Shown here piece by piece: positions 10,301 to 30,062 of a stretch of 54,821 bases of DNA. Below the pieces are notes generated by a model. It worked only from the letters and a program-made list of their open reading frames with translations. It did no database searches and was not told the DNA's origin. The DNA lies in NCBI GenBank assembly GCA_012797775.1, contig JAAZOM010000011.1, positions 1 through 54,821 of the forward strand, written 5' to 3'. How positions within the stretch are numbered: position 1 is the first letter of the stretch; the number at the start of each line of letters is the position of its first letter. Origin of the DNA: Candidatus Kuenenbacteria bacterium. Its GTDB lineage: Bacteria; Patescibacteriota; Patescibacteriia; UBA2196; GWA2-42-15. The position numbers were made by a program, and so were the translations under genes.

Positions 10301-10580
10301 TGCAACAATTGGACCAATAGGCGTAGATTGCTTTACTAATAATACCAACTTAATGGCTGATCTAAACTGCGATGGCAGGGTGGACGTAATCGACCTTGGT
10401 GTTTTGCTTTCCTGTTGGCAGGATAATTTTAAAATAGGGTGTGTGAGCAGCTCGATAAGTTGTGACAAATCACCCGATATAAATATCGACGGTGCGGTCA
10501 ATATTGTTGATTTTGGGCTAATGCTTGGCTGCTGGGGCAATAATACTAGTGATAGTTGCAAGGCGCCCGTCTCGCCATAA
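7308..10580 (+). CDS. Giant secreted glycoside-hydrolase-like protein with golvesin, lectin-like and dockerin modules
   Basis: 1090 aa. An N-terminal hydrophobic segment (about residues 20-40) is followed by GGSVAGEYAVRIAAG, a motif shared with the next gene. Residues about 80-560 resemble a TIM-barrel hydrolase (AIWYDAFRF, FNLDFVADTL, WHDGFIVESCMF, RYGLTTNTMGDAFYG), closest in feel to GHL15-type putative hydrolases, but without a certain catalytic pair. Residues about 605-735 match the golvesin/xanthan-lyase C-terminal domain (GKWNSLGKFIFNAG, VLADAVKFVF). A CNNNGNCDEPGETNANCPND Cys motif, a LamG-like sandwich (780-1010) and a dockerin-like pair (DLNCDGRVDVIDLGVLLSCW, DINIDGAVNIVDFGLMLGCW; 1016-1085) follow. 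It is probably exported and attached to a partner via the dockerin. A TATAAT stands about 25 bases upstream. It is followed 27 bases later by a related gene. Confidence 0.75.
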   Translation: MMSEIFGDNQKQTLKKTNFVLKSAFFIAVFILCGNIIALKTGLTEQLSKIFYYPIGGSVAGEYAVRIAAGDEPNWNPSYPRVTYVTPSADSYFTGCAEISGNFDVVGVSYGNSSCAQAIKNKNNQVIIFGQLRSAVSLLDETQKEDDFVDVLPYLAFRSDGYQLAQDVAPNTTDVDIKLNKIDGLSTGNGRSIIVVGPNKLSDIDQIVNYPGLDRFSYASIDAANTTLRGVGAGHVDKNYSAGDYVIQVPKVGGWLVNVSTRNPTYKDNIAFYINDKYKNVSSSYLKSIDAIWYDAFRFTGAESEFDNVDFNLDFVADTLAEKTSSWQAGLKETFTAEKQYTGKKYVITNDGNGVVLPSSVASWHDGFIVESCMFYINSWNDYLKTLQAWSDAGDRFILCTDEKFDPSYWTAEKKERYKNYFSDMRYGLTTNTMGDAFYGREVGQYYQINLWYDEYQTDLGYPKSKAQKINSLCFNEKIDYTTYERCPYVRFFDNGAAIVNPTFKDITIKDSDIKGLAGYAGPYYRFYGGQSPTVNNGKQLTDGDPVVLTGQYAGNPGKDGKNKGDGILLFKKPDYYVVADILVGNFNNNDTSPGSKPVETTGSWPNGIDTGAKTNPYFSQWNWDGDEGWGYFYTTDQSATATFRPTIGIGGEYEVFEWHGWANNGGGGGEATNVKTEIKHANGTQNTTINQRGNYGKWNSLGKFIFNAGTDCYVKISASGADGTVLADAVKFVFTGNSIQPPQPPPPPVCNNNGNCDEPGETNANCPNDCPPVPSGQCYAADHFLNSTLTDFSKFHFKGGPEKQVDFPDNTHARIHLEGSMNNPTSGIIMKNDIPAGTTDFEVKVERSGPEDEVEILFMEGDPDACKNFLIALHPVSFANAVGKTSPTGSAGLGCTDSNQCKRFLEIQYYGDGTKGTSADNLPGYPNCDDANPKEFVLVSEQSKVDNLLVLKVVKQGSVYDIYNDDQKIGTYTDSKNLNITKVAVVNRSSNSLKSDYATIGPIGVDCFTNNTNLMADLNCDGRVDVIDLGVLLSCWQDNFKIGCVSSSISCDKSPDINIDGAVNIVDFGLMLGCWGNNTSDSCKAPVSP

Positions 10581-10607
10581 AAATATTTTGATAATTAAAA
10601 TTAGGGT

Positions 10608-13600
10608 ATGAAAAAAAATAAACAAAAAATAAATTGGAGTTTTTGTTTAAAGTCTTTTTTGGTGATTTTTGTTTTTATTATTACCTCAATGGTTTTACTT
10701 TATGGTTCGGGAATAACTGATCGGCTATCAAATTGTTTTTATGTAGAACAATATGGTGAAGTGGCTGGAGAATATAGTGTAAGGATGGCGGCAACACAAG
10801 TGAATACGCTAGCTATAAATCAAAATAATTTTACCATTAACGGACAAACATCTTTTCTTTTGGGGGCTTCCGTTTTCGATGCTATAAATTGGGACGAGAC
10901 AAAAATGGTTTCTGATTTGGATTATCTGGCACAAAATAATTATAATCTGATCCGTGTTTGGGCTGATTGGCAGTGGCAGGATGGGACTCAAAATAGTTCA
11001 CGTAATAGTACTGTATATGATACGACAAAAAAGGATGGCTCTCTAGACACAATAAAAATTGAAAAACTCAAAAGAATAATAGACGCGGCAAAGACCAGGG
11101 GAATTATAGTTGACTTGGTTATTACTGATTTTAATCCATCTTATTATGTAGATGGAGAGTCCTTACAAAGTTTGTTGTCAAAACACCAAAAAGCGGCTAC
11201 CAACATAACCACTGCCTTACAAGGAAAACCAAATTTGTTTTTTGATTTAATGAACGAGCATGATAATAATGGCAGTAGCTCTTATCTGCCTTTCCCTAGT
11301 CATGATGACATAAAAAAAATCGCCGAAGCTGTGCGAGCGGCTGACGGCTCTAGATATATTACTGTTTCCAACCGAGGCAATACATCTATGGTACAAACAC
11401 AAATAGTTGATGAGTTATCAAAAACCAATAACCCTTTTTATACCCCACATTTTAGCAGAACCTCCGACTGGTGGAGTAGTACAGGAGAGAGAATCGGGGC
11501 TGTTAAAACTATTTTAAATAATATGTCCCCAGTAAGGAATATTCCCATCTACCTGCAAGAAGAACAAAATTTTGGCGATGATCCTACACAGAGCCACTTT
11601 GTAGAGGCGGCCAAACAAGCCAAAAATAACAATGCGGCGGGGTGGGTCTTCCATCAAACCGCTGGCTTTGATCTAAAAAATAGCAAATCATTTAAAGACC
11701 AGCTCGGTGATAATGGGAGAGCAACCCTTGAAGCTATTGGAGCGGCTGTGGGGACTCCAGGCGGGCCGACTGGAGATTGTAATATAAAAACAGATGTGAA
11801 TTTTTGGTCTGTTTCTAATGGTAATGACTTCAAAGAAATACCTATTTGTAATAGTTCTCAGGCTGGGTATGTTGAGTTTGAGGTTTCTGGAATAAGTCTT
11901 GATAATATGCCACTAAAAACTGGTTATTCTGTTTTTACGATTTTGGATAAAAGCGGAGTTAACAACCCCTATGAAACAAGCCAAAATCCAAATTATATAA
12001 CACTAAAAATCTTGGGACAAGGATATGGTGGGGAGTATCCAGGAATGATTCATTATCGATCAAATATAAACAACACTTGTGATTATATGCAATGCCATCA
12101 TGAAAATGATGGGGTAAAGGGCTCAAGGTGTAGCGATGACACTGACTCCCCCTCTGATCAGTGCCCACCGGCGTGGGAATGGTACGGTGATTTTCCTTAC
12201 GAACCATGGGAAAATAAAACCCACAAATTTAGAATAGAGTGGGGCGCGGGAAGCAACAACAAACATTTGATTTATAAATATTGGTCCAACGGCACTTGGC
12301 AAACATTAAAAGATTGGGATCCTGGCCAAATAACCAATGCAAAATATCAAAACTTTGGCTGGCTAGCAGATAATATGGTTTTAAGATTGGGCAATAGTAC
12401 AATGTACCCGGGTATAAAGGGGTCTATATATAAAAACATAACAGTAAAAACAACCAGCCCCGGCACTACCCCAAAAAAATGCGTGGCTGATTTGGCTGGG
12501 AAAATTTGCCAACCAAATCAGACCTGCTCGACTGGGAACTTTGCTACGGCTAGTGATACAAATTATTGTTGCGTGGGCGGGACGTGTCAGGGTGGCTGCT
12601 CAGCCGGCTACTCTTATTGCAAGCTGGGGAAAATGTGCGCGAGTGATCGATGGTATTATAATACGCCAACAACCGAATGCTGCGCCACGAATTGCATGAC
12701 AATGCCAAGAATAAGTAATTTCCCTGTCCAACTACCTCCTTATTTAAATACTGATAAATCAAAATATGATTTGAATATTGGCACAGCCGACAATCAAGTT
12801 GATTTGTTTATAAATTATAATACAACGCTACAAAACAATGCATTGGCTCCTTTGAGCCAAATACTAATAACCCCAGCTTCCCCGGTGCCGAGTGCCCCAA
12901 CAAATGAAAAAGTAATAAAGGCCTACAATTTTGGTTTGGGTGGGGCGCAATTTGATCCACCAATAAAATTGGCCTTTAATTATACCAACGCAGAAATGAC
13001 CGGGATTGTCGAAAGTAGTTTATATATCGGACTGTGGGATAGCGGTAATAATAAATGGATAAAACAAACAACTAGCTTGGACCAAGCAAATAATAAAGCC
13101 GAGGCACAAATCTCTCATTTTTCTATCTATGGATTACTGGGAGGATTGCTTTGTGGTAATGGTACTTGTGACACTGGGGAAAATAGTATAAATTGCCCGG
13201 CTGATTGTCCACCTACTCCCCAAATTAATTGTGGAAATGGGATCTGCGAGGGTGGCGAGACAAATGCCAATTGCCCGGCTGACTGCCCGACAGGCGGTGG
13301 CTCGGCAGATTTGATAAAAATAGATGACAACGCTAGGAATCCAGCCGTGGTAGTCGATAGTATGGGAAACCTACATGTGGCATACGACTGTGTTAGCGCT
13401 GGTGGAGTTTGTTATAGAAAAATTTATCAGGAAATGGGACAAATCAAAAAGGGCCCGGTAATACCCCTAGCCTCTGGGACCAATGACCCAAGGGTTGGGA
13501 TAACAGATGGCGACCAGATACATATCGTCACTGCAGTCAAATATATAGTCATTGAACCAGACGGGACCATAATAAAAAAGGATTTGCCCGCCTTAAATAG

Positions 13601-14993
13601 CCCAAGGCTGGCGTTAAGTACAAAAAACCCTGGGGAGGCATATGTTCTGTATCGGGAGACTGATCGTTATGGGGCTATAAAAATGAAAAAGATAAAGGCC
13701 TCTGGTGGTACTATTAGTGAGGAGGCAACAATAACAGTAAATGATAAATGTTCAAAACCACAAATGCCAGGAAATGTTGTGGTTGACAAGGATGATGTCG
13801 TCCATTTGACCTGGCGTCAATTTGGAGATAGTGACTCGATTTGTCCGGGGAGAAATGTCCAATATATACAATACAAAAATAATTCTTTCGTAAACAAGAA
13901 AGAGATTTTTGGCGCCACTAGCGATTATACCGACATGGAACTAAATGAAGCAACTGGAGAATTTCATATGATTGCAACTACCCCCCAAGGCACCTGTGGC
14001 TTGGCTTATCGCACAATGGATATGGGTGGCAACTTAAGCCCAATATATTATCTATATTTACCTTATGGTATAACCTATGCTTGCACCAAGCCGGCTGGAG
14101 AAACGGCCAGCTATATAATAAGCGGTGCGGCGGACAGGCGTGGTGAGGCGAATATTACTGCTCCGTATATGTCTTTTGAAAATGATGGAAAATTACACAT
14201 TGCTTTTATTGGTGCTGGCACACAAATAAGACCAGACACCATAGAAGATGCACTAAAAAATGTTTATTGGGAGGTAGATAATATAGACCCCAATAGTATG
14301 CCAGTGCCAAATTCTTCTGACCTAGAGCAACTAAAGGCCAGGTGGCTTTCTCAAAACTCCGGCAAGACAACTAATGATTATATAGAAATGTTGAATGAAG
14401 AAATTTTTTGTTGGAATAATCCTGCCTCCTATTTATCAGCAAAAGGATGCTATTATTATACTGCTTATCATACTGTTTTGGATAAAGCGACCCTGAAGTC
14501 AGACACGCCTCCTGGTGGGGATGCCCCAAACAATATCCCAACTCCGGAAAAATTTACTCCAGAAAGAACAAAAGAAAGCGACCAGGGGAGCGATGCGAGC
14601 AATCCAATCATTGACAAGGCCTGGAATCAGGGAGTGTTTATGGTTTTTGAAGATGATTATGAAAATCCAAAATTTAATATTTATCTAAAAGCGGTGGGTG
14701 GAGCTGTGATCGGCATACCACAAATGAAAGCTGATCTAAACTGCAGCGGCAAGGTGGATGTGGTAGATCTTGGTATTTTGATGTCTTGCTGGGGAAATAA
14801 TTATGATCAATACAGTCCTCAATCCTGTGCCTTGGGGGCTAATATAAAAGCTGCTTGCAAAAGGCCTATAAATATTGATGGCCTAACAGGCTCTGATGGT
14901 AAAGAAACTATTGATATTAGTGATTTTTCAATTATGATGGGCTGTTGGGGGGTAAATAATAGCCCCCAATGTTTCGCTGTTATTGGTCCGTAA
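10608..14993 (+). CDS. Giant secreted GH5-like hydrolase with Cys-rich repeats, propeller-like region and dockerin
   Basis: 1461 aa. Signal/anchor (about 15-35), then GEVAGEYSVRMAAT as in the gene upstream. Residues about 60-390 form a GH5-like TIM barrel: NNYNLIRVWADWQWQDG, LFFDLMNEHDN with the acid/base Glu after Asn (E217), and IPIYLQEEQNFG with the expected nucleophile Glu (E318 or E319), WVFHQTAGF last strand. Next come a beta domain with LPPAWEWYGD-like segments, a Cys-rich stretch (about 622-700), two CGNGxCDxGExxxNCPxDCP repeats (about 845-895), a propeller-like region with VVDxxGNLHVAY/VVDKDDVVHLTW repeats (about 905-1260) and a two-repeat dockerin (DLNCSGKVDVVDLGILMSCW). Likely acts on glycans outside the cell together with the previous protein. 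Confidence 0.8.
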   Translation: MKKNKQKINWSFCLKSFLVIFVFIITSMVLLYGSGITDRLSNCFYVEQYGEVAGEYSVRMAATQVNTLAINQNNFTINGQTSFLLGASVFDAINWDETKMVSDLDYLAQNNYNLIRVWADWQWQDGTQNSSRNSTVYDTTKKDGSLDTIKIEKLKRIIDAAKTRGIIVDLVITDFNPSYYVDGESLQSLLSKHQKAATNITTALQGKPNLFFDLMNEHDNNGSSSYLPFPSHDDIKKIAEAVRAADGSRYITVSNRGNTSMVQTQIVDELSKTNNPFYTPHFSRTSDWWSSTGERIGAVKTILNNMSPVRNIPIYLQEEQNFGDDPTQSHFVEAAKQAKNNNAAGWVFHQTAGFDLKNSKSFKDQLGDNGRATLEAIGAAVGTPGGPTGDCNIKTDVNFWSVSNGNDFKEIPICNSSQAGYVEFEVSGISLDNMPLKTGYSVFTILDKSGVNNPYETSQNPNYITLKILGQGYGGEYPGMIHYRSNINNTCDYMQCHHENDGVKGSRCSDDTDSPSDQCPPAWEWYGDFPYEPWENKTHKFRIEWGAGSNNKHLIYKYWSNGTWQTLKDWDPGQITNAKYQNFGWLADNMVLRLGNSTMYPGIKGSIYKNITVKTTSPGTTPKKCVADLAGKICQPNQTCSTGNFATASDTNYCCVGGTCQGGCSAGYSYCKLGKMCASDRWYYNTPTTECCATNCMTMPRISNFPVQLPPYLNTDKSKYDLNIGTADNQVDLFINYNTTLQNNALAPLSQILITPASPVPSAPTNEKVIKAYNFGLGGAQFDPPIKLAFNYTNAEMTGIVESSLYIGLWDSGNNKWIKQTTSLDQANNKAEAQISHFSIYGLLGGLLCGNGTCDTGENSINCPADCPPTPQINCGNGICEGGETNANCPADCPTGGGSADLIKIDDNARNPAVVVDSMGNLHVAYDCVSAGGVCYRKIYQEMGQIKKGPVIPLASGTNDPRVGITDGDQIHIVTAVKYIVIEPDGTIIKKDLPALNSPRLALSTKNPGEAYVLYRETDRYGAIKMKKIKASGGTISEEATITVNDKCSKPQMPGNVVVDKDDVVHLTWRQFGDSDSICPGRNVQYIQYKNNSFVNKKEIFGATSDYTDMELNEATGEFHMIATTPQGTCGLAYRTMDMGGNLSPIYYLYLPYGITYACTKPAGETASYIISGAADRRGEANITAPYMSFENDGKLHIAFIGAGTQIRPDTIEDALKNVYWEVDNIDPNSMPVPNSSDLEQLKARWLSQNSGKTTNDYIEMLNEEIFCWNNPASYLSAKGCYYYTAYHTVLDKATLKSDTPPGGDAPNNIPTPEKFTPERTKESDQGSDASNPIIDKAWNQGVFMVFEDDYENPKFNIYLKAVGGAVIGIPQMKADLNCSGKVDVVDLGILMSCWGNNYDQYSPQSCALGANIKAACKRPINIDGLTGSDGKETIDISDFSIMMGCWGVNNSPQCFAVIGP

Positions 14994-15122
14994 TTTTTGA
15001 TAAAAATAGCAAAAATTGGCCAAAAAAATCTGGTCAATTTTTGTTTTATGTGGGGCTTTACAATGAGCCCTAAAAATATTAAGCTAACTATAAGATTATT
15101 ATTAATTCATGCTATAAAATAT

Positions 15123-15521
15123 ATGTTTGGCAAAAATCAATCCATGGAAAACGATAGCTCGGCTATAGACACAATTATTGGGCCTTCTGTCAGCGTAGAG
15201 GGAAACTTCAAGGGTGAGGGTAATATTGTAGTAGAGGGTGAAGTAAAGGGTAGTTTAAAAACAAAGGGGTATTTAAAGGCATCAGAGTCATCTGTAATTG
15301 TGGCCAATATCTCGGCTGGTGATGCGGAAATTGCCGGACAATTGGTTGGAAACATAAAAGTAAGGGGCATCTTGGATATAAAGAATACCGCATCTGTTCA
15401 GGGCGACATAGAAGCACAGGGGATCTCTGTGGCCAACGGAGCAATAATAAATGGTAATCTAAAAATGAAGTCCATACAGGGAGAGAAAGACATAGCCACA
15501 GAGGAACAAAACAATAATTAA
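15123..15521 (+). CDS. Bactofilin (polymer-forming cytoskeletal protein)
   Basis: DUF583 right-handed beta-helix protein. IGPSVSVEGNFKGEGNIVVEGEVKGSLKTKGYLKASESSVIVANISAGDAEIAGQLVGNIKVRG shows the regular G-x-(V/I)-x-G spacing of bactofilins, which assemble into membrane-associated filaments that scaffold cell wall enzymes. The frame is open from 14997, but the ATG at 15123 (MFGKNQSMENDSSAIDTIIG) is the usual family start, giving 132 aa. It sits between the secreted hydrolases and the lipid-kinase-like gene on the same strand. Confidence 0.88.
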   Translation: MFGKNQSMENDSSAIDTIIGPSVSVEGNFKGEGNIVVEGEVKGSLKTKGYLKASESSVIVANISAGDAEIAGQLVGNIKVRGILDIKNTASVQGDIEAQGISVANGAIINGNLKMKSIQGEKDIATEEQNNN

Positions 15522-15533
15522 TTTTTTAGAACG

Positions 15534-16304
15534 ATGTATTGTTATATTTACGATAGTTTTCTAAATCAAAAAAAATATGAAAAACAACTCTCAAAAATAG
15601 AGTTGTTTTTGGCTGATTTGGGTATTGGCGGGAGAATACACAAATTAAATGTATTAAAAAATTTGGAGGAATTAATCAGTGAAGAAATTAATGGTGGAAC
15701 AAAAAACTTAATAGTGGTAGGCAATGATCAAACGGTTAGCCGCGTATTGGATTTTTTGGTTGGGAAAAATGTAGCACTTGGAATAATTCCGATGGGAGAA
15801 AACAATGCATTGGCTGAGTCTATCGGCATTGGCTCTCCAGAAGATGCCTGTAAAATAATTTCGGCCAGGCTGATCGGAGAGATGGATGTGGGAAAAATAA
15901 ATGAACAATATTTTCTGATGGGACTAGAGGTTGATGATCATAATGTTATTTTTAATTTTAAAGAATACAACATTAACCCCAGAGAAAATAATAATACTGT
16001 TGGTATTTGTAATATAAATACCAAAAAATACGATTTCAATTCCCGATTTGATGACGGCGTGATGGAGGCGGTGTTTATACCCGGGCAACAGAGCTGGTGG
16101 CAAGGATTATTTAATAAAAAAGAACCGGAAAATGCCCAGAAAATCAGCATTTTCCCAATAAAAACGCTGGAAATTGAACACCGAAAAAAACCAGTTAATA
16201 TTATTATAGATGGGCAAAGAACAATAAAAACCCCAGCGAGAATAGAGGTGTTAAAGAGAAAATTAAAAATAATAATGGGAAAAAGTTTTATAAATAACAT
16301 TTAA
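15534..16304 (+). CDS. Diacylglycerol-kinase-fold protein with altered nucleotide motif
   Basis: 256 aa. KNLIVVGNDQTVSRVLDFLVGKNVALGIIPMGENNALAESIGIGSPEDACKII aligns with the DAGK catalytic signature (GGDGTxNEVxNGL...LGIIPxGTGNxxA), and the beta-sandwich half follows (FLMGLEVDDHNVIFNF ... ILKTLEIEHRKKPVNIIIDGQ-like end). GGDGT is replaced by GNDQT, and GTGN by GENN, so phosphate binding is probably changed and kinase activity is doubtful. The gene follows bactofilin by 12 bases, so they are likely co-transcribed. A lipid-related or purely binding role is inferred. Confidence 0.7.
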   Translation: MYCYIYDSFLNQKKYEKQLSKIELFLADLGIGGRIHKLNVLKNLEELISEEINGGTKNLIVVGNDQTVSRVLDFLVGKNVALGIIPMGENNALAESIGIGSPEDACKIISARLIGEMDVGKINEQYFLMGLEVDDHNVIFNFKEYNINPRENNNTVGICNINTKKYDFNSRFDDGVMEAVFIPGQQSWWQGLFNKKEPENAQKISIFPIKTLEIEHRKKPVNIIIDGQRTIKTPARIEVLKRKLKIIMGKSFINNI

Positions 16305-16333
16305 GAACCCCGACAGATGCCGGGGTTCTTAAA
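16304..16333. terminator. Terminator between convergent DAGK-like and PRC genes
   Basis: AAGAACCCCG-ACAGATG-CCGGGGTTCTT with A/T on both sides; usable in both directions. Confidence 0.8.
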
Positions 16334-16342
16334 TAAACAATA

Positions 16343-16642
16343 TTATTCTGGGGTAGGACTGGTGACTGGCTGTTTTTTCCTCTCGGTACTAAATTTTTTT
16401 TCTTTGCTCTTAACAAAATTATCAGAAACAATAATTTTATCTTCTGAAATATCTATAATTTGACCACGATTGATAATTAATCTGTTTTTAAAAAGGCTGG
16501 TAATGGCGTGGTGGGGAATAATATAATAATTAATAATGCTCTGTGAGTCTATGTCAATCTCAAAATCTGCCAGGCGGCCAATCTCCTGACCCGCCTCGGT
16601 AAAAACCGGCAAATTAATAATTTTTTTATTGTTTATTATCAT
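16343..16642 (-). CDS. PRC-barrel domain protein
   Basis: 99 aa. KIINLPVFTEAGQEIGRLADFEIDIDSQSIINYYI is a typical PRC-barrel strand pattern (hinge G-x-x-I/L-G-x-x-x-D), followed by RLIINRGQIIDISEDKIIVSDNFV. PRC barrels occur in RimM and photosynthetic reaction centre H subunits as protein/RNA interaction folds. Its start overlaps the yidC stop by 17 bases, so it is the last gene of the rpmH-rnpA-yidD-yidC operon. The C-terminal 20 residues are charged and probably disordered. Function unknown. Confidence 0.75.
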   Translation of the reverse strand: MIINNKKIINLPVFTEAGQEIGRLADFEIDIDSQSIINYYIIPHHAITSLFKNRLIINRGQIIDISEDKIIVSDNFVKSKEKKFSTERKKQPVTSPTPE

Positions 16643-21871: not shown

Positions 21872-22557
21872 GGACCTGTGAGGCTTTTTTGAAATTCTTT
21901 TAATAATTTTTTATGAGAAAAAAATATTTTGTCTGCTGAGAGTAGGAACTTTTTATGGAGAGTTGTTTTAATTGCGTATGTTGTGAGTCCAGCTTTTTTT
22001 GCACTTTTAATGCCGAGGGGGGAGTTTTCTATTACTAAAATTTCTTTAGCATTAAATTTTAATTTTTTAATTGCCAAGAGATAGGGTTCGGGATTTGGTT
22101 TGTTTTTGTTTGTGTCGTCGCCAGAAATTATTACTTTAAAAAAATTTTTAAAAAATTTATCAACTATTTTTTGGACAAATTTTTTATTGGCCCCACTAAC
22201 TAGGGCCAAGCTTAATCCTCTTTTTTTGAGTAATTTTAACAACATGGAAACATATGGATATGGAGAAACACGAAGGAGGGTTTTTACTTTTTCTTTTTTT
22301 ATAAGGTGAATTTTTTCTCTATCAACGGTATTTAATTTTTTAGAATATTTTTTTAGAATAAAGTTTATAGTTTCTTTATAAGACATGCCCTCTAATAAAA
22401 GTAGGTCTTTTTTCGTTGCATTGATACCAAATTTTTTAAAGGCATATTGCCAGCTGACAATATGGTGGGGGATGTTCTTAATAAGAACACCGTCTAGATC
22501 AAAAATTATTGCCCTTATGCTATCCTTTAATATTTTATTATTTGCTGTTTCTGGCAT
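21868..22557 (-). CDS. HAD-superfamily phosphatase (beta-phosphoglucomutase-like)
   Basis: 229 aa. HAD motif I is IIFDLDGVLIKN (nucleophile Asp and the +2 Asp), motif II ALVSGANKKF, motif III the Lys in NKNKPNPEPYLLAIKKL, motif IV VIENSPLGIKSAKKAGL. An alpha-helical C1 cap lies between motif I and II (about residues 25-95), as in PGM/phosphatase-type HADs. Substrate unknown. The ATG at 22557 overlaps the end of smc by 20 bases, so the two are translated from one mRNA. Confidence 0.85.
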   Translation of the reverse strand: MPETANNKILKDSIRAIIFDLDGVLIKNIPHHIVSWQYAFKKFGINATKKDLLLLEGMSYKETINFILKKYSKKLNTVDREKIHLIKKEKVKTLLRVSPYPYVSMLLKLLKKRGLSLALVSGANKKFVQKIVDKFFKNFFKVIISGDDTNKNKPNPEPYLLAIKKLKFNAKEILVIENSPLGIKSAKKAGLTTYAIKTTLHKKFLLSADKIFFSHKKLLKEFQKSLTGP

Positions 22558-24766
22558 ATTTTTCAGATTCTTCTAGTTTGATGCTGATTAGTTTAGAGAT
22601 GCCATCATCGCCCATGGTGACACCATAAAGTAGGCGGGCTTTTTCCATGGTGGCACGATTGTGGGTGATAACAATAAATTGTGTTTTGTGAGAGAGATCT
22701 TCTAAGATTTGAGCGAAGCGCAGGGAGTTTGATTCGTCTAGGGCGGCATCGACCTCGTCGAGCACAATAAAGGGCGCTGGGTTGGATGAAATAATGGCAC
22801 AGATAAGGGCAATGCTGGTAAGGGCTCTTTCGCCCCCAGAGAGAATACTAATTGATTTCAGTTTTTTACCCGGGGGGGTAGCATAAATTTCAATACCACT
22901 ATAACCATCGCGATTTTTTTCTTGAAAAAAATTAATAGCGGTATTTTCATTTGGTTGATTTTCTTCTTGCTCTTTTTCCGTTGATTCTTTTAGGAGAGAT
23001 AATTCTGCCTTGCCCCCATTGAAGAGCATTTTAAAATATTTTTGAAAATAATTATTTATTTCTGCGAATGATTCGGTCATTTGTTTTTTGATGATTTGAT
23101 CCAATTCATTAATTATTTTTTTGAGTGATTCCATGGTTTCTCTCAGGTCGGATATCTGGGTCGTGATAAATTCATATTGTTTTTGGGTTTCTGTATATTC
23201 TTTTTCTATTTCTGGGTCGAGGCCGCCAATCATTTCCAATTGGCCTTTCAGTTTGTTGATTTTATTTAGGATAGAATTTTTTTCTTCCAAGTTTTCAATT
23301 TTTGGAGCATCTTTTTTTAGTAAATCAAAACCACCCAGCTCGCGCAATATTTCTTCTTTGAGATCAAACCTTTTTGTTTCTATTCTGGCTAGATTAATTT
23401 TTATTTCATTGAGTTCGTTATTTTTAATATTTAGCTCATTTTGGTGTTTTTGGTAGTTTTGCTGGAGGTGCCAGAGGTTGGAACGATCACTGTTCTCCTC
23501 ATCAAGGATTTTTTTGATGTTTGATTGTAATGAAGAGGCCTCGGCTTCTAAGGACTTTATTTTTTCCTCCAAGCTGGTTATTTTGGGGCTGGTGTTGTTT
23601 TTTTCTGGTTCGGGAGTTGTCTTTTGCAGGTAAGGGCGGAGTAGAGAGAGAAGGGCGGTTATCTTTTCCTTGGCAGAAAAGACGAGCTTTTGTATTGTGT
23701 CTATATTTTGACCAGTTTGAAATTCTTTCTCGGTGTCCTGATGGAGCCGATCTATAGTTTCGAGGTGCTGAAAAATTTGGTTGATTTTTTCCTCAGATAA
23801 GTTTTTGGCTGATGGCTGGCTATTGTTTTTTGCCATCTGTGAATTTTTTAAAATAAATAATTCTTCCTTGAGGGACATTTTTTTGTCGAGAAGAGATTGA
23901 TGTTCTTGGCGTAGTTTTTCTATTTTTTCATTGGTATTGTTGTTTTTGAGAATTTTATCCAGTTCGTCTTTGGCTGACTGCCAGAGCTCATGAATTTTGT
24001 TTTTTTCTTCTTCTATTAGATTTATTTTTTTTATTTCAGTATCATAGTTGGAATTGATTTCTTGCCAGTAGGCGCTGTAATAATTTAATTGGGCTTCCCG
24101 GAGCTCGGCTTCTATCTCTTTTCTTTTGTTGAGCTTTTTGACTTGTCTGGTGAGGAGGTTGAGGTGTGGCTCCATTTCTTGGATTTTTATTTGGGCGGCA
24201 GAAAGATTTTGTCCAACTTGTTGAAGCTTGGAAATTGTTTGATTTTTTTTAATTTGATATTGTTTGACCCCGGTGGCTTCCTCAAAAAACTCTTTTCTTT
24301 CTTCGGGGGTGGCAATGAGGAAGTTGTCGATCATGCCTTGGCCGATAATAGCATAGGTGCGGTGGCCAAAGTTGGCCTGAGTCAGGAGGAGATTGATGTC
24401 AGCGAGCTTGCTTTTACTATTATTGATCAGATATTCACTTTCACCATTGCGATAGATTTTTCTGGTGATTAAGAGGTCGCTATAATCAATGGGGACTTTT
24501 TTGTCAGAATTGTCCAAATCCAAAGAAACCTCAGCTAGTCCGAGTCGGGCTTTTTTGTCTGAGCCGGAGAAAATTACATCCTCACTTTTTTTGCCGCGGA
24601 GGGTTTTGATGCTTTGTTCGCCCATAACCCAACGGATGGCGTCGGAGACATTGCTTTTGCCAGAACCATTGGGCCCGACGATGGCAGTAATGCCGTGGGA
24701 AAACTCCAAGGTAGTTTTTTGGGCGAAGGATTTGAAGCCGTTGATTTCTAGTTTTTTGAGATACAT
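22538..24766 (-). CDS. smc: Short, apparently hinge-less SMC protein
   Basis: 742 aa against about 1150-1200 for bacterial SMC. The N-terminal head has Walker A AIVGPNGSGKSNVSDAIRWVMGEQ and the Q loop; the C-terminal head has signature LSGGERALTSIALICAI, Walker B PFIVLDEVDAALDE and the H loop VITHNRATMEKA, so both ATPase halves are intact. Coiled coils occupy about residues 170-350 and 400-560. Between them is only a polar stretch (KTTPEPEKNNTSPK region); I see no hinge domain with its Gly-rich dimerisation motif. There is no internal stop or frameshift. ScpA and ScpB genes are not in the window. It could compact chromosomes in a simplified way or act in repair. Confidence 0.85.
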   Translation of the reverse strand: MYLKKLEINGFKSFAQKTTLEFSHGITAIVGPNGSGKSNVSDAIRWVMGEQSIKTLRGKKSEDVIFSGSDKKARLGLAEVSLDLDNSDKKVPIDYSDLLITRKIYRNGESEYLINNSKSKLADINLLLTQANFGHRTYAIIGQGMIDNFLIATPEERKEFFEEATGVKQYQIKKNQTISKLQQVGQNLSAAQIKIQEMEPHLNLLTRQVKKLNKRKEIEAELREAQLNYYSAYWQEINSNYDTEIKKINLIEEEKNKIHELWQSAKDELDKILKNNNTNEKIEKLRQEHQSLLDKKMSLKEELFILKNSQMAKNNSQPSAKNLSEEKINQIFQHLETIDRLHQDTEKEFQTGQNIDTIQKLVFSAKEKITALLSLLRPYLQKTTPEPEKNNTSPKITSLEEKIKSLEAEASSLQSNIKKILDEENSDRSNLWHLQQNYQKHQNELNIKNNELNEIKINLARIETKRFDLKEEILRELGGFDLLKKDAPKIENLEEKNSILNKINKLKGQLEMIGGLDPEIEKEYTETQKQYEFITTQISDLRETMESLKKIINELDQIIKKQMTESFAEINNYFQKYFKMLFNGGKAELSLLKESTEKEQEENQPNENTAINFFQEKNRDGYSGIEIYATPPGKKLKSISILSGGERALTSIALICAIISSNPAPFIVLDEVDAALDESNSLRFAQILEDLSHKTQFIVITHNRATMEKARLLYGVTMGDDGISKLISIKLEESEKYARNSK

Positions 24767-24871
24767 AAGTTGAGGGGCAAATAAAAATTGACTACAGAAG
24801 AGTCAAATTTATTATATCAGGAAAAGGGTTTTGGGCAAAAAGCACGTAGGTGAGTGAAGCGAGCGATATCC

Positions 24872-25014
24872 TCATAGCGTTTGCGTGTATGAGAAGTTTC
24901 GCCGGCTTCCTTATTATTTTATCATAGAGGAGGCGAAATTTGGGTGAAAGAAAAAGTGCAACCCCTGAAAATTATCTACGTACTTTTTCTTGAACCCCAT
25001 ACACGCTGTTATGT
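24872..25014 (-). repeat. attC-like site A
   Basis: Stem GCGTGTATG (24883-24891)/CATACACGC (24998-25006). Two arms inside: TTTCGCC/GGCGAAA, then linker AAATTTGGGTG, then AAGAAAAAGT/ACTTTTTCTT. The box at 25008-25014 is GTTATGT; the opposite box reads CATAGCG, a decayed AAC side. About 90% similar to site D in its left half. Confidence 0.8.
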
Positions 25015-25022
25015 GCTGTTGA

Positions 25023-25505: not shown

Positions 25506-25541
25506 GGTGTTTTAAGTTGGTAAGTAATTATGGTCAATTGC

Positions 25542-25616
25542 ACACAACGTACCCGAATATCTGAAGTTGTGAAACAATTTGGGTGAACGAAGTGAACCAG
25601 ATATTCGGTGTTGTAC
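25542..25616 (-). repeat. attC-like site B (short)
   Basis: 75 bases. Stem CCGAATATCTG (25553-25563)/CAGATATTCGG (25598-25608), boxes CACAAC at 25543-25548 and GTTGTAC at 25610-25616. Inner arms are minimal: TTGT-GAA-ACAA and GGT...ACC, with linker AATTTGGGTG between them. This is the shortest and most classical-looking attC of the array. Confidence 0.82.
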
Positions 25617-25635
25617 GATGTCGAATCCCGAAGCA

Positions 25636-25980
25636 TTAATCAATGAGAAAATCCAGCTGTTCTTTTGGTATACCGATTGAAAGTCCGTGTTCAACCGCGG
25701 GTACCCACGAAGATTTATCATCATAATTAAACTCAAACTTCTTGCCCTGGAAAATCGCAATAACTTCTCTATCTTTCCAAAAATGCATATACCACTTAGG
25801 CTTGATATTCTCAGACAGCCTAGCTATATCTTCGTGGGTAACAGAAACAGTATATAGATGCCACCTATCTGCTGGATTTTCATCCTTTGAAATTCTAAAA
25901 CCAATAATTTTAAAATCGTTGATTACACGATTGTCATTTAAACTTTCCTCAACGATAGTTCCTTTGTACATGTCTGACAT
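25636..25980 (-). CDS. Cassette II: hypothetical protein
   Basis: 114 aa, acidic, probably cytoplasmic. MYKGTIVEESLNDNRVINDFKIIGFRI, DRWHLYTVSVTHEDIARLSENIKPKWYMHFWKDREVIAIFQGKKFEFNYDDKSSW and EHGLSIGIPKEQLDFLID read like a well-conserved small alpha/beta protein; I have the impression that close relatives exist widely as hypothetical proteins, but no function is known to me. The Trp-rich WYMHFWKD segment and the final P-x-E-Q-L-D-F motif would be useful search anchors. Stop is 20 bases from site B. Confidence 0.75.
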   Translation of the reverse strand: MSDMYKGTIVEESLNDNRVINDFKIIGFRISKDENPADRWHLYTVSVTHEDIARLSENIKPKWYMHFWKDREVIAIFQGKKFEFNYDDKSSWVPAVEHGLSIGIPKEQLDFLID

Positions 25981-26196
25981 ATGATTATTTTAAAATTATT
26001 GGTTTGCCTCGGGATTCGATTTTGTACAACGTTTCTGTGTATCTGAAGTTTCAGATACTTTATTGTAGCTTCTCAGTAATGTTCAATCAATAAAAAGCTA
26101 CAATGAAGAATCTGAAATTTGGGTGAGGGGATAAGAAAATAAAATGAATTATTACCTTCAATTAAAAGCCCTTTTGAAACTTTAGATGACTGTGTG

Positions 26197-26224
26197 TTGA
26201 CAAAATTAGCGATAGTGCTAAGTT
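26197..26224 (+). promoter_or_regulatory. Promoter of the nested gene in site C
   Basis: TTGACA (26197-26202), 16 bases, TAAGTT (26219-26224), about 44 bases before the ATG. The -35 is perfect, the -10 weak. It lies wholly within the arm-2 loop. Confidence 0.5.
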
Positions 26225-26267
26225 TAATTTCTAGAATGTACAATAATCATTTAACTCAGGAGGAAAA

Positions 26268-26465
26268 ATGAAATACTCTAAAATATTCAACGGCCAATAT
26301 TTTGTTTTGGTGCAAAACGGTCATTCGCCCTTATTTCGCAAACTGGATGGAAAAGCTCTTCAAATATACGTAAGTACGAATATTCTTAGTCCTGGTTTGT
26401 GTAGTGGCGATGAGATCGTCATTAAGCCTGATAGAAAAGTCCAGCCAGTTGACATGAGCCGTTGA
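26268..26465 (+). CDS. Small protein encoded inside the arm of attC-like site C
   Basis: 65 aa: MKYSKIFNGQYFVLVQNGHS..., KLDGKALQIYVSTNILSPGL, CSGDEIVIKPDRKVQPVDMSR. Not recognised. It looks like a small beta-rich soluble domain (alternating hydrophobic strands), with no membrane segment. An excellent ribosome binding site (AGGAGG, 6 bases before ATG), an upstream TTGACA box and a downstream hairpin terminator make it a convincing expressed gene. It is the only gene of the array on the plus strand and lies wholly in the loop of arm 2. Confidence 0.7.
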   Translation: MKYSKIFNGQYFVLVQNGHSPLFRKLDGKALQIYVSTNILSPGLCSGDEIVIKPDRKVQPVDMSR

Positions 26466-26471
26466 TGGTAT

Positions 26472-26511
26472 TACCCGCTTATTAGCAGAACAATGCGAAC
26501 GGCGGGTTTTA
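26472..26511 (+). terminator. Terminator of the nested gene
   Basis: ACCCGC (26473-26478) pairs with GCGGGT (26502-26507) followed by TTTT; 8 bases after the stop codon. Confidence 0.6.
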
Positions 26512-26608
26512 AATTTCAAAAGGGCTTTTAAAAATATAAAAATTATTCATTTTATTTTCTTATTCCTGAACCAGATACACAGTGTTATACGAAGTTGGGT
26601 TTTGTTTC

Positions 26609-26869
26609 TTACCCGTATCTTAATTTAAGGATTAACATAATGAGGCCAAGTGTTGTGCCAACACTATTCATGGCAGTGAGTGGACCATTATGCAGAATTA
26701 TTCCATAGATTGTCCATAGAATAACACCAACCGCGTATATTATTGAACGTGACAAAGAAATATCTCTCGTGGATTTAGTACGAAAGCTTTTAATCACTTG
26801 GGGCAACATTGAAATGACGACCAAAATTCCAGCGATGTAGCCCAAAATATTAAGCCATTGTAATTGCAT
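26609..26869 (-). CDS. Cassette III: SemiSWEET-type PQ-loop transporter
   Basis: 86 aa with three transmembrane helices, the size of bacterial SemiSWEETs that dimerise to move sugars. The first helix carries the PQ motif: LNILGYIAGILVVISMLPQVIKSFRTKSTRDISLSRSIIYAVGVILWTIYGII, followed by LTAMNSVGTTLGLIMLILKLRYG (third helix with conserved Asn). Transport substrate is not determined by sequence. The stop codon falls inside the cassette terminal inverted repeat. Confidence 0.88.
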   Translation of the reverse strand: MQLQWLNILGYIAGILVVISMLPQVIKSFRTKSTRDISLSRSIIYAVGVILWTIYGIILHNGPLTAMNSVGTTLGLIMLILKLRYG

Positions 26870-26907
26870 AATCGTTTTTTAGTAGAAAAGAAACAAAACT
26901 CAATTTC

Positions 26908-27047
26908 GTATAACGTTTGCGTGTATGAGAAGTTTCGCCGACTTCCTTACTTTATTCTAGAGGAGGCGAAATTTGGGTGAAAGAAAAAGTGCAACCTTTG
27001 AAAATTATTAACGCGCTTTTTCTTGAGCCTCATACACGCTGTTAAGT
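26908..27047 (-). repeat. attC-like site D
   Basis: Stem GCGTGTATGAG (26919-26929)/CTCATACACGC (27029-27039); boxes GTATAAC (26908-26914) and GTTAAGT (27041-27047), the latter a perfect GTTRRRY. Arms TTTCGCC/GGCGAAA and AAGAAAAAGTGC/GCGCTTTTTCTT (one G-T-type mismatch) flank linker AAATTTGGGTG. Confidence 0.85.
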
Positions 27048-27054
27048 GATGTAT

Positions 27055-27774
27055 TTATAATTTTTTACCGTCCTTATTGTTGTCAATTTTTTTCGAACCG
27101 AATATTATGTAAAGGAAAACTTTATAGTACAAAACAATAGCGGCAATAAATCCGGCAATGACCAATAGAGATATTTTTAGAATATAAAAAGTTGTAAGAA
27201 AATCTGATTTTCTATAAAAAACTAAATCTTTGTAGAACAAAGAATTGTCATCTATTGGCTCTAAAAATCTAAGTTTTCCGTCTTCTTGCCCATTGCTATC
27301 ATAATGCGTGTATGCGTCAGGAAGTAAACACTTGATATTGTTTATTCTTATATAATTTGCGAATGTTTCTATTGGGACATCATTTTTGCCGTATATATCT
27401 CTGATAAACAAAGTTCGTATTCCGCTTTTGTTTTGTACGTCAGCAACTTTATTTTCAAGATTATTGGAACAATAAATATCGTCATATAAAGTTTTATCGG
27501 TCGTTGCATTTAGGTGGTATGAAGCCCCGGGACGATCATACAATTCTTCAACTATTTCATTTGGTTTCTTTAGTTCTCGGATTTGTTTAACTTCGGTCGT
27601 TATTCGATCGTTAACAGAATCAACAATTTCGTATTGAGGAATAATGAGCGAGTCAAAATAATCATATAGTGTGTATAACGCCAAGATGAAAGACGCGAAA
27701 AAAATTACCAAAAGTAATCTGTGCCACCAACGACCACCTAAATTTAAGTCTTTTCGAAAAAAATTGTTTTTCAT
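27055..27774 (-). CDS. Cassette IV: two-pass membrane protein, unknown
   Basis: 239 aa. TM1 at about residues 15-40 (WWHRLLLVIFFASFILALYTLYDYF) and TM2 at about 195-228 (FLTTFYILKISLLVIAGFIAAIVLYYKVFLYIIFG), enclosing an approximately 150-residue soluble domain (ITTEVKQIRELKKPNEIVEELYDRPG ... DAYTHYDSNGQEDGKLRFLEPI) that should face outside. The cytoplasmic tail KKIDNNKDGKKL is Lys-rich. The domain is not recognised. Stop is 8 bases from site D. Confidence 0.75.
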   Translation of the reverse strand: MKNNFFRKDLNLGGRWWHRLLLVIFFASFILALYTLYDYFDSLIIPQYEIVDSVNDRITTEVKQIRELKKPNEIVEELYDRPGASYHLNATTDKTLYDDIYCSNNLENKVADVQNKSGIRTLFIRDIYGKNDVPIETFANYIRINNIKCLLPDAYTHYDSNGQEDGKLRFLEPIDDNSLFYKDLVFYRKSDFLTTFYILKISLLVIAGFIAAIVLYYKVFLYIIFGSKKIDNNKDGKKL

Positions 27775-27799
27775 ATGAGTAAAAAATTATAAATATTTC

Positions 27800-27995
27800 A
27801 CTTAACGTTTGCGTGTATCCGATGTTTTCATCCCGATTAAACGAGATAAATTTTGGTTATCGAACGCAAGCTTGTAATAGAACTCCACCCAAATCTTCAT
27901 CGAACTAAGGGATGAAAATTTGGGTCGAGGGAAATGGACACTCCTTAAGGATATAATTTGCGTCAATTTCCCGAGCCGGATACACGCTGTTATAC
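27800..27995 (-). repeat. attC-like site E
   Basis: Stem GCGTGTATCCG (27811-27821)/CGGATACACGC (27977-27987); boxes ACTTAAC (27800-27806) and GTTATAC (27989-27995). Arm 1 TTTTCATCCC/GGGATGAAAA has a long loop; linker AATTTGGGTCGA; arm 2 GGGAAAT/ATTTCCC. Confidence 0.85.
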
Positions 27996-28042
27996 GCTGT
28001 TTTGAAAAGTCCCTACCTTAATGTATTTATTTTGGCAATTCA

Positions 28043-28375
28043 TTATTCTTCCATAAGCTCATAAATTCTATCAGCCGCCTTACCTTGGATATGAAATTCC
28101 GTGCCGCCTACATAGAAATGAAAGCTTAATTTTTCAGGGTCGGAAGTAGGGGATGTTTGAAAGTGAGATATTTCGAAATCACCTGATTGTACTCGTTTCA
28201 TATCATCTATTTTCGGATCACTAATGTCAAAATCAAATCCATAACCTTGTTTTTTTGTTTCAGGATTATCTGGCCACTGTTCCCTGAAAAATTTTCTTAT
28301 TGCGGACTCAAATTGTTCTCCTTGATTTTCTTTACTCTCTTGTGGCGGAGTGGCGCCTTCAAATTTTTCTGGCAT
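28043..28375 (-). CDS. Cassette V: hypothetical protein
   Basis: 110 aa, acidic and soluble. A disordered N-terminus (MPEKFEGATPPQESKENQGEQ) precedes AIRKFFREQWPDNPETKKQGYGFDFDISDPKIDDMKRVQSGDFEISHF and LSFHFYVGGTEFHIQGKAADRIYELMEE, which looks like a small beta-sheet fold. Function unknown. It is flanked by the longest terminal inverted repeats of the array (about 55 bases each). Confidence 0.7.
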   Translation of the reverse strand: MPEKFEGATPPQESKENQGEQFESAIRKFFREQWPDNPETKKQGYGFDFDISDPKIDDMKRVQSGDFEISHFQTSPTSDPEKLSFHFYVGGTEFHIQGKAADRIYELMEE

Positions 28376-28477
28376 AATTTTTACTTTAATTAATATTGGT
28401 TAAATTATATCTTAAGTTATATCGACTCCGCCACATGAATTGCCAAAATTTTAATAAATGGGACTTTTCAAAATGGC

Positions 28478-28567
28478 GTATAACTGGTTGTTATCTATAC
28501 TTTTTTGTAGATAACAACTAAAATTTGTAGGTTATCCATACAGATCGAGCAAGGCGTTGGGTTGATT
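28478..28567 (-). repeat. Degenerate attC-like site F (right edge of array)
   Basis: Box GTATAAC (28478-28484), perfect hairpin GTTGTTATCTA (28487-28497)/TAGATAACAAC (28508-28518) as arm 1, linker AAAATTTGTAGG, then a decayed second arm and GTTGGGT (28557-28563), which fits GTTRRRY. The outer stem is not conserved. In minus orientation this is the upstream end of the array; a role as an attI-like simple site cannot be excluded. Confidence 0.55.
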
Positions 28568-28634: not shown

Positions 28635-30062
28635 ATGAATTTAACACAAAAAATAGCTTGGAATACGATAATCCATACCATTGGCAAATTTGGCGCTTCG
28701 GCTATTGGGGTTTTGGTAGTGGCTATTTTGACCCGATATTTGGGAGTGGAGGGGTATGGCGAGTACACTACGGTTTTTGCTTATCTTTTTTTCTTTGCGG
28801 TTTTGGCCGATTTGGGATTGTATGTGGTGACGATCAACGAGCTCAAAAGGAGCCAGTGGGGTGAGGAAAGATTTTTTAATAATATTTTTACCATGCGCTT
28901 TGTGTCAGCTATTTTTATGATGGCTCTGGCTGGGGCTCTGGTTTGGTTTTTTCCTTATAATAATAATATAAAATGGGGGGTGCTTTTGGCTTCACTGTCC
29001 GTAGCTTTGGGTTTGATTGACCAGACACTGGTGGCTTATTTTCAAAACAAGATTAATATGAAGATGGTGGCGGCGGCGGAGCTGGCTGGGAAAATATTGC
29101 TTTTGATTTTGACTGGGCTGGTGATTTCTCGGGGATTGGGACTGATGGCAATTTTGGCGACAGTGGTAATCGGGTTTGTTTTGAACGTCGGGATAAATCT
29201 GGTAGTTTTTTTGAAGCAAGCCAAGCTGAAATTGACATTTGACCTAATAGTATGGCGAGAAATATTTGGTAAGTCCTGGCCAATCGCGGTGACTAGTATT
29301 TTTTCTTTGATTTATTTCAAGGCCGACACCTTACTTCTGTCTATTTTGCCGATCAATCCAGCCTATGCTTTGAGTAATAGCGAAGCGGTAGGAATTTATG
29401 GCGCGCCGTATAAAATTTTGGAAGTGTTGATTGCTTGGCCGGCGATTTTTATGGGATTGGTTGGGCCGGTTTTGGCCAAGGCGTTTGCCGAGGGGGATCT
29501 GGCTGGTTTTAAGAAAGCCTGGCAAAAAGCGTTTGACGGTTTGGCGGTGATAATTTGGCCGATGATTGTGGGGACAACGATTTTGGCTAGACCAATAATT
29601 GTGCTTTTGGCCGGGGAGAGCTTTGCGGCGGCTGGGACAATTTTGAAAATATTGATTTGGGCGACGGGGATTATTTTTTTGAGTCATCTGACGACTTATG
29701 CGATTATCGCCATTGGCCGGCAAAAACAGATGATCAAATATTATCTTTCAGCAGCAGTGATCGCCCTGGTTTTGTATATAATTTTAATACCCAAATATGC
29801 CTACTTCGGTGCGGCTGGGGTGACAGTTGGGGTGGAATTATTTATGCTCATGGCTACGATGATTCTACTAGGAAAAGCGACGGGACTGAAAATAAATTTG
29901 ATGATTTTCGGTAAAGCCTTTTTGGCGGCAATGGTGATGGGGATGGCCTTGTGGCTGGCTAGTGGTTGGCACATTGTATTATCAATACCTCTGGGTATAA
30001 TTATATATTTAATAGTAATGTTTCTGGCTGGAGGAATAGACAGAAATCTATTAAAAAAGTGA
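28635..30062 (+). CDS. Polysaccharide flippase (MATE/MOP, Wzx-like)
   Basis: 475 aa with about 12-14 transmembrane segments. The N-terminus (LTQKIAWNTIIHTIGKFGASAIGVLVVAILTRYLGVEGYGEYTTVFAY) is typical of the Wzx/RfbX branch of the MOP superfamily, and ADLGLYVVTINELKR follows. These proteins flip undecaprenyl-linked oligosaccharides across the membrane. The downstream O-antigen-ligase-like gene, 10 bases away, supports a role in surface polysaccharide export. Confidence 0.88.
   Translation: MNLTQKIAWNTIIHTIGKFGASAIGVLVVAILTRYLGVEGYGEYTTVFAYLFFFAVLADLGLYVVTINELKRSQWGEERFFNNIFTMRFVSAIFMMALAGALVWFFPYNNNIKWGVLLASLSVALGLIDQTLVAYFQNKINMKMVAAAELAGKILLLILTGLVISRGLGLMAILATVVIGFVLNVGINLVVFLKQAKLKLTFDLIVWREIFGKSWPIAVTSIFSLIYFKADTLLLSILPINPAYALSNSEAVGIYGAPYKILEVLIAWPAIFMGLVGPVLAKAFAEGDLAGFKKAWQKAFDGLAVIIWPMIVGTTILARPIIVLLAGESFAAAGTILKILIWATGIIFLSHLTTYAIIAIGRQKQMIKYYLSAAVIALVLYIILIPKYAYFGAAGVTVGVELFMLMATMILLGKATGLKINLMIFGKAFLAAMVMGMALWLASGWHIVLSIPLGIIIYLIVMFLAGGIDRNLLKK

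Follow-up and report, generated by a model that had tools for sequence, protein, structure and literature searches.

Site C, in the array described here, is likely to be a recombination site that folds as a single strand and belongs to a Patescibacteria system resembling integrons, with arm 2 of the site serving as a second cargo bay that rides with it. The arm contains a short gene unit within a long palindromic stem. Sites with a gene in an arm recur in other genomes, the genes change while the sites around them are conserved, and the same type of unit is also found in the bodies of cassettes. Site C presumably still recombines, and its gene would be transcribed from its own promoter.

The array and its ordinary parts

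The window, by which we mean the whole stretch of 54,821 nucleotides that was analysed, is contig C11 of a 930-kb genome. Its array consists of five short genes, all on the minus strand, separated by five palindromic attC-like sites (A-E), and is flanked by the chromosome-segregation gene smc (22538-24766) on one side and by a flippase-like gene (28635-30062) on the other. No integrase gene adjoins it. A second array with six further sites lies on contig C29 of the same genome. The ordinary sites of the window, and the gene of the cassette beside site C, are:

24871..25019, + strand, ordinary site A (R1 71.8 bits)
25541..25621, + strand, ordinary site B (R1 72.0 bits)
26907..27052, + strand, ordinary site D (R1 77.2 bits)
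27799..28000, + strand, ordinary site E (R1 65.5 bits)
26609..26869, - strand, PQ-loop/MtN3-like body gene, cassette beside site C (Pfam PF04193, E 6.6e-11)

Each cassette body has at its ends an inverted repeat of its own, 25-46 nt long and in some cases split into two blocks, which extends well beyond the R box of attC. The stretches in which this was noted are:

25610-26030, 26584-26914, 27041-27806 and 27991-28487 in the window
13735-14382, 14567-15387 and 16260-17301 in L027

Two of the repeats, I4 and I5, are intact on either side of site C and abut it as such repeats abut the other sites, so the loaded site C still forms an array boundary of the normal kind. In the second array, the last cassette (L027 16338-17216) encodes by eye an rRNA adenine dimethyltransferase-like protein of the Erm/KsgA type, and a cassette body of about 5 kb (L027 8391-13449) is apparently a type III restriction-modification operon, as judged from its translations.

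Architecture of the attC-like sites

A covariance model and a structural alignment were built from 11 trimmed sites of this genome. All 11 sites have the same order: AAC, an unpaired GTTT, an outer stem of 10 bp, arm 1, arm 2, the strand that closes the outer stem, and GTT. The end triplets themselves are AAC...GTT in 10 of the 11, site A having AGC, and they correspond to the core ends of attC. Arm 1 follows the pattern AWGTT...AAYWT and arm 2 the pattern GG-g-Y...RCC. Compensatory changes on both sides were found in 19 of 30 pairs, 96% of the cells are paired, and none of 500 shuffles reached the value of the real alignment. When the partners were slid by 1-3 columns, the paired share fell to 27-49%, compared with the 96% in register. 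As in attC, it is thus the structure of an imperfect palindrome, more than the sequence, that is conserved. The right box, GTTRNRYG, is one position looser than the classical RYYYAAC / GTTRRRY consensus. Two further attC features can be read from the alignment: the GTTT opposite T would form the unpaired spacer between end triplet and stem, and the unpaired G in the GG-G-Y of arm 2 would be an extrahelical base.

Site C and its stems

Site C consists of the following parts:

26028..26591, + strand, attC-like site C, AAC ... GTTATACG, a three-way junction (alignment with the genome's 10 other sites)
26035..26044, + strand, outer stem, left strand CTGTGTATCT (pairs with 26573-26582)
26573..26582, + strand, outer stem, right strand AGATACACAG, then T and GTT (pairing, fold)
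26046..26120, + strand, arm 1, an ordinary long hairpin without a gene (inverted repeat I2, fold)
26121..26572, + strand, arm 2, with the gene unit (site scan)
26128-26153 / 26541-26566, + strand, outer block of arm 2 (24/26 paired)
26162..26182, + strand, left inner inverted repeat of arm 2, TTAAAAGCCCTTTTGAAACTT, of the recurrent RGCYCTTTTSAAWTTT type
26511..26531, + strand, right inner inverted repeat of arm 2 (20/21 paired with the left)

Arm 2 is 452 nt long, compared with 10-60 nt in nearly all ordinary sites. A preliminary description of this DNA had reported a near-perfect stem of two blocks around about 330 bases; the two blocks (24 of 26 and 20 of 21 positions paired) were confirmed, with a mismatched stretch of 8/9 nt forming an internal loop between them and an interior of 328 nt inside the inner one. 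Folded as single-stranded DNA, site C reaches -97.2 kcal/mol against -50.8 +/- 3.7 for its shuffles (z = -12.5; all 100 shuffles fold less well). Arm 1, arm 2 and the outer stem are all present in its minimum-energy fold.

The gene unit inside arm 2

The interior of arm 2 contains, in order:

26197..26224, + strand, promoter-like TTGACA, 16 nt ending in TGC, and TAAGTT (layout as in other units)
26258..26263, + strand, ribosome binding site AGGAGG, four bases 5' of the ORF
26268..26465, + strand, 65-aa ORF, an orphan (no relative found)
26473..26507, + strand, terminator-like hairpin, end of the unit (RNA fold -16.1 kcal/mol, z -3.3)

The unit lies on the + strand and all five cassette genes on the opposite one, exactly as described before. 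An ATG-initiated ORF of this length occurs in 5% of Markov-1 random inserts, and one that also has AGGAGG in 0.005% (5e-5); this part of the earlier reading, the ORF with its ribosome binding site, holds. The flanking signals agree with it in part. TTGACA is exact at 26197-26202, but the best -10 element (TAAGTT, 26219-26224, at a spacing of 16 and preceded by TGC) matches 3 of 6 positions and is weak, and a formal sigma-70 scan called no promoter in the unit. Similarly, the proposed terminator is indeed a GC-rich hairpin with a 7-bp stem, but its tail is poor in T and the formal scan did not call it.

No relative of the 65-aa protein was found in 94 genomes, genome_contigs, viral_contigs, Pfam or PHROGs; the matches at E 0.05-0.4 look like chance, several of them containing stops. 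The 65-aa ORF of this copy might be nonfunctional, the arm being a long structural hairpin or a decayed unit in which the palindrome alone matters, and its orphan status, the weak -10, a codon usage that gives a flat and uninformative score and a poor predicted structure (mean pLDDT 46) would all agree with this. We regard it as unlikely, since the ORF is uninterrupted, the AGGAGG is rightly spaced (the combination with a chance of 5e-5), and promoter, ribosome binding site and terminator follow each other as in related units that encode other proteins.

Recurrence of gene-bearing arms

About 120 array regions were fetched from other genomes, amounting to 1.40 Mb of array DNA, and sites were parsed by the pairing of the outer stem, the pairing of arm 1 and the junction of arm 2. 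Of 182 sites parsed, 164 were ordinary, and in 18 a gene occupied arm 1 or arm 2. Reading L213, L234 and L235 by hand added four, which brings the total to 22 gene-bearing sites in 12 genomes of the class, and the view that a hairpin arm can carry a gene other than that of the cassette body is borne out well beyond the window. The count excludes seven composites (L063, L064, L069, L208, L240 twice, L250), which joined halves of two neighbouring sites and were removed because they had internal sites or no arm stem. The stems of the long arms contain exact matches of 10-27 nt; among random pairs of stretches, 10 nt is reached in 1% and 15 nt in 0.1%. At one locus, L202 (G200:C12, reverse-strand coordinates 7912-16393), arm 2 carries a gene in five sites, and one of these genes encodes a trypsin-like protease. 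An ordinary site of the same locus is 92.6% identical to site D of the window over 149 nt.

Gene-free cassette bodies of about 70-110 nt adjoin gene-bearing sites in several places, namely to the right of the gene-bearing sites of L213 (6290-6400), L091 and L061. In such cassettes the arm gene may be the only cargo.

Two types of cargo were distinguished. Type I, to which the unit of the window belongs, has the + orientation of the site and is enclosed by an inner repeat of the RGCYCTTTTSAAWTTT type. Its signals are TTGAC[AT], 16-18 nt, TA...T, an AGGAGG-like site and a terminator, and no Pfam match was obtained for any type I protein tested. Type II lies on the - strand like the cassette genes, mostly without a RGCYCTTTTSAAWTTT-type repeat, and sits in arm 1 in four cases and in arm 2 in the rest. 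Its genes encode two Fic proteins, of which one is a Fic/Doc protein with a small partner, HicA, which likewise has a small partner, a trypsin-like protease, a cupin, a GNAT acetyltransferase and, by eye, a HEAT-repeat-like protein.

Turnover of the cargo

The arms were also sought in other genomes, as the preliminary description had proposed, and related gene-bearing sites were found with other genes inside. Four genomes of four families (G023, G064, G361, G276) share one common site. On the left of the insert 174-274 nt, and on the right 100-141 nt, align at 82-94% identity; four different ORFs lie inside, and nothing aligns within the insert. A second common site is shared by G200 and G207 (93% / 91%), with an ORF of 58 aa in one and 51 aa in the other, and here the flanks outside the site are unrelated. 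With this second, gene-bearing site (L202 and L206) the right arm of site C shares 83.5% identity over 79 nt, and the left end of site C matches it exactly over 24-26 nt, which places site C in a family of gene-bearing sites. In the comparisons across genomes, homology of the gene-bearing sites ends at or near the site boundary, and the site with its arm thus behaves as a block that is joined to different cassettes.

These comparisons modify three earlier statements. Absence of conservation of the 65-aa ORF had been named as a sign against the nested gene, and the ORF indeed shows no conservation; the related sites nevertheless show that this lack is explained by turnover of the cargo and not by absence of a unit. 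The gene had also been expected to move with the site: the block of site and arm does join different cassettes, but a given gene is not tied to a given site. Finally, the unit had been said not to be a cassette itself, which is only half right, since one and the same site holds different genes across genomes and the same type of unit also occurs as an ordinary cassette body. In one family of units (L172/L192), 33 synonymous codon differences were counted against 21 that change the amino acid. Searches for site C and the other gene-bearing sites in an empty state gave weak short matches at most, and no identical gene was found in two different arms.

The inner repeat and the arm tip

A search of 380 genomes for the RGCYCTTTTSAAWTTT-type repeat gave 41 matches, compared with about 15 for a reversed control pattern, and many of the matches are inverted pairs less than 1 kb apart around a gene. 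All pairs that could be placed by eye lie within arrays, either in arm 2 (the window, L120-L123, L151 twice, L185) or in a cassette body (by inspection, for example L172, L173, L181, L186 and L193); those of L127, L175 and L184 are, again by inspection, apparently at array ends. The repeat core was absent from the viral contigs, and a longer form of it was found twice in genome_contigs, in a Parcubacteria and a Falkowbacteria genome. Since these named genomes have parts of the system in common with the window, its host is taken to belong to the Patescibacteria. In most pairs CCTT precedes the repeat by 8-10 nt on the promoter side. Of 61 ordinary arm 2 loops, 27 have CCTT in the 5' half, where 2.6 would be expected, and 3 have it in the 3' half. 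Taken together, the bias in ordinary loops and the CCTT of the units suggest that the gene units may sit within a conserved arm-tip loop.

A terminal repeat that is conserved around varied contents could also belong to a non-autonomous, MITE-like transposon whose ends are the inner repeats and which has jumped into AT-rich hairpin tips. This seems quite improbable to us. Wherever a pair could be placed, it belonged to an integron-like array, with no pair seen outside one; no second copy of the site C arm exists elsewhere in its own genome, and in most cases the repeat is part of a longer paired stem. The ends are asymmetric, with CCTT solely on the promoter side; neither a target-site duplication nor a linked transposase was seen, so that the marks of a MITE with terminal inverted repeats are missing; and many gene-bearing arms (Fic, HicA, trypsin, cupin) have no RGCYCTTTTSAAWTTT-type repeat at all. 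The weakest alternative, that two neighbouring sites lost their inner halves and trapped a cassette body as an arm with no cargo-bay function, draws on stems of different sites that are alike enough to form hybrids and on the seven false composites in intact arrays, but it is very improbable given that the arm stems retain arm-specific junctions (GGGTGA...GAACC, AAGTT...AATTT) in place of GTT...AAC body ends, and that the layout is kept in conserved sites across genomes with different cargo.

The recombinase and the attI-like sequence

Two tyrosine recombinases are encoded in the genome, and the one on contig C31 is closest to XerA and IntI4. Its alignment to IntI4 (2a3v) skips IntI4 residues 201-239, and the IntI-specific additional domain between the catalytic boxes is absent from it; it scores 203 bits with TIGR02249, under the cut-off of 265, and is over the cut-off of NF040815. 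The sequence TAACTAGTTGTTATCTATAC...GATAGATAACAAC...GTAGGTTATCTATAC lies directly 5' of the gene, at the contig end (L028 4100-4171). It has a counterpart at the end of the array in the window:

28480..28542, + strand, attI-like, hairpin-bearing array end, nearly identical to the sequence upstream of the C31 integrase gene

The near-identity of the two makes this sequence a candidate attI. Of the array loci taken from other genomes, many include a homologue of the C31 recombinase. The system looks as if it worked like an integron, though its integrase would not be classed as an IntI.

A model for the loaded site

Under the reading of arm 2 as a second cargo bay, a tyrosine recombinase would act on the outer stem with its AAC/GTT ends. 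The two arms would correspond to the variable terminal structure of attC, for which a fixed sequence should not be needed. The tip of the long stem of arm 2 would hold a self-contained unit of promoter, ribosome binding site, ORF and terminator in its own inverted repeat. In single-stranded DNA the stem would hold the two halves of the site together, so that the site could fold and recombine despite several hundred bases of cargo, and the gene would travel with the site into any array that it joined. Over time the cargo of an arm might be replaced through homologous recombination between conserved flanks of the arm, or by another route, possibly recombination at the inner repeat. When a Vibrio attC is given a different sequence in place of its 65-nt variable terminal structure, the effect on recombination is small, only about two-fold (PMC2727003). 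Such a replaceable structure, together with the long stem of the arm, favours a cargo bay within the site. A more far-reaching version, which we offer tentatively and consider possible but doubtful, is a two-level cassette system in Patescibacteria, in which the arms would be dedicated cargo bays, loaded and unloaded at the arm-tip motif CCTTWAA..., with up to three separately exchanged genes per cassette.

Relation to known systems

The arrays resemble integron arrays and CALINs in their tandem genes between imperfect, single-strand-foldable palindromes with AAC/GTT ends. Their sites share with attC an asymmetric unpaired spacer, an extrahelical base and a variable terminal part, and the genome has, as integrons have, an IntI-like tyrosine recombinase and an attI-like site. 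Unlike integron arrays, they have a three-way-junction core with two conserved arms and inverted repeats of 25-46 nt at the cassette ends; unlike in integrons, the recombinase is without the IntI-specific insertion and genes lie inside the arms of the sites.

In attC sites such as the VCR of Vibrio cholerae, the variable terminal structure ranges from 3 nt to a branched fold and is dispensable in vivo (PMC2727003). The sites described here likewise have their variable part at the top, but it can hold a whole gene with its own signals, up to about 1 kb, unlike that of the VCR. IS1111-attC elements place foreign sequence in the attC hairpin. Group IIC-attC introns also do so, in the orientation opposite to the cassette genes (PMC7923331). 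Both are self-mobile, with a reverse transcriptase or a transposase, and interrupt the site, whereas the unit of site C is short, has no mobility gene, lies at the arm tip and leaves the fold intact. A group IIC-attC intron in site C was considered and rejected, the interior of 328 nt being too small for a reverse transcriptase; no Rfam family matched this interior at its gathering score.

Superintegrons contain toxin-antitoxin and other cassettes with their own promoter. Those described sit in the cassette body, and none is known from inside a recombination site. The Fic/Doc and HicA pairs in other arms are toxin-antitoxin-like and resemble such cassettes, as would expression from an own promoter.

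attC sites are regarded as pure recombination signals, and models of them expect short sites of about 200 bases at most. In the system described here the recombination signal itself carries genes in many genomes, and the cargo changes while the site is kept. The counting and annotation of cassettes would change, because short-site models would miss or split gene-bearing sites. Our literature search, which lay outside preprints and most subscription journals, so that earlier work may exist, found no description of integrons in Patescibacteria and none of genes inside attC. The loaded sites show what load a folded site may tolerate in its variable part, and they offer a testable route for gene exchange in Patescibacteria.

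Distribution of the site family

The covariance model matched in 73 of 143 relatives (E <= 0.01), in 160 of 380 genomes of the class (1e-5) and, in a sample of 192 genomes from across the phylum, in 34. In one genome that belongs to a different class, at least 15 sites are arrayed over 28 kb (G391:C1:257794-285830).
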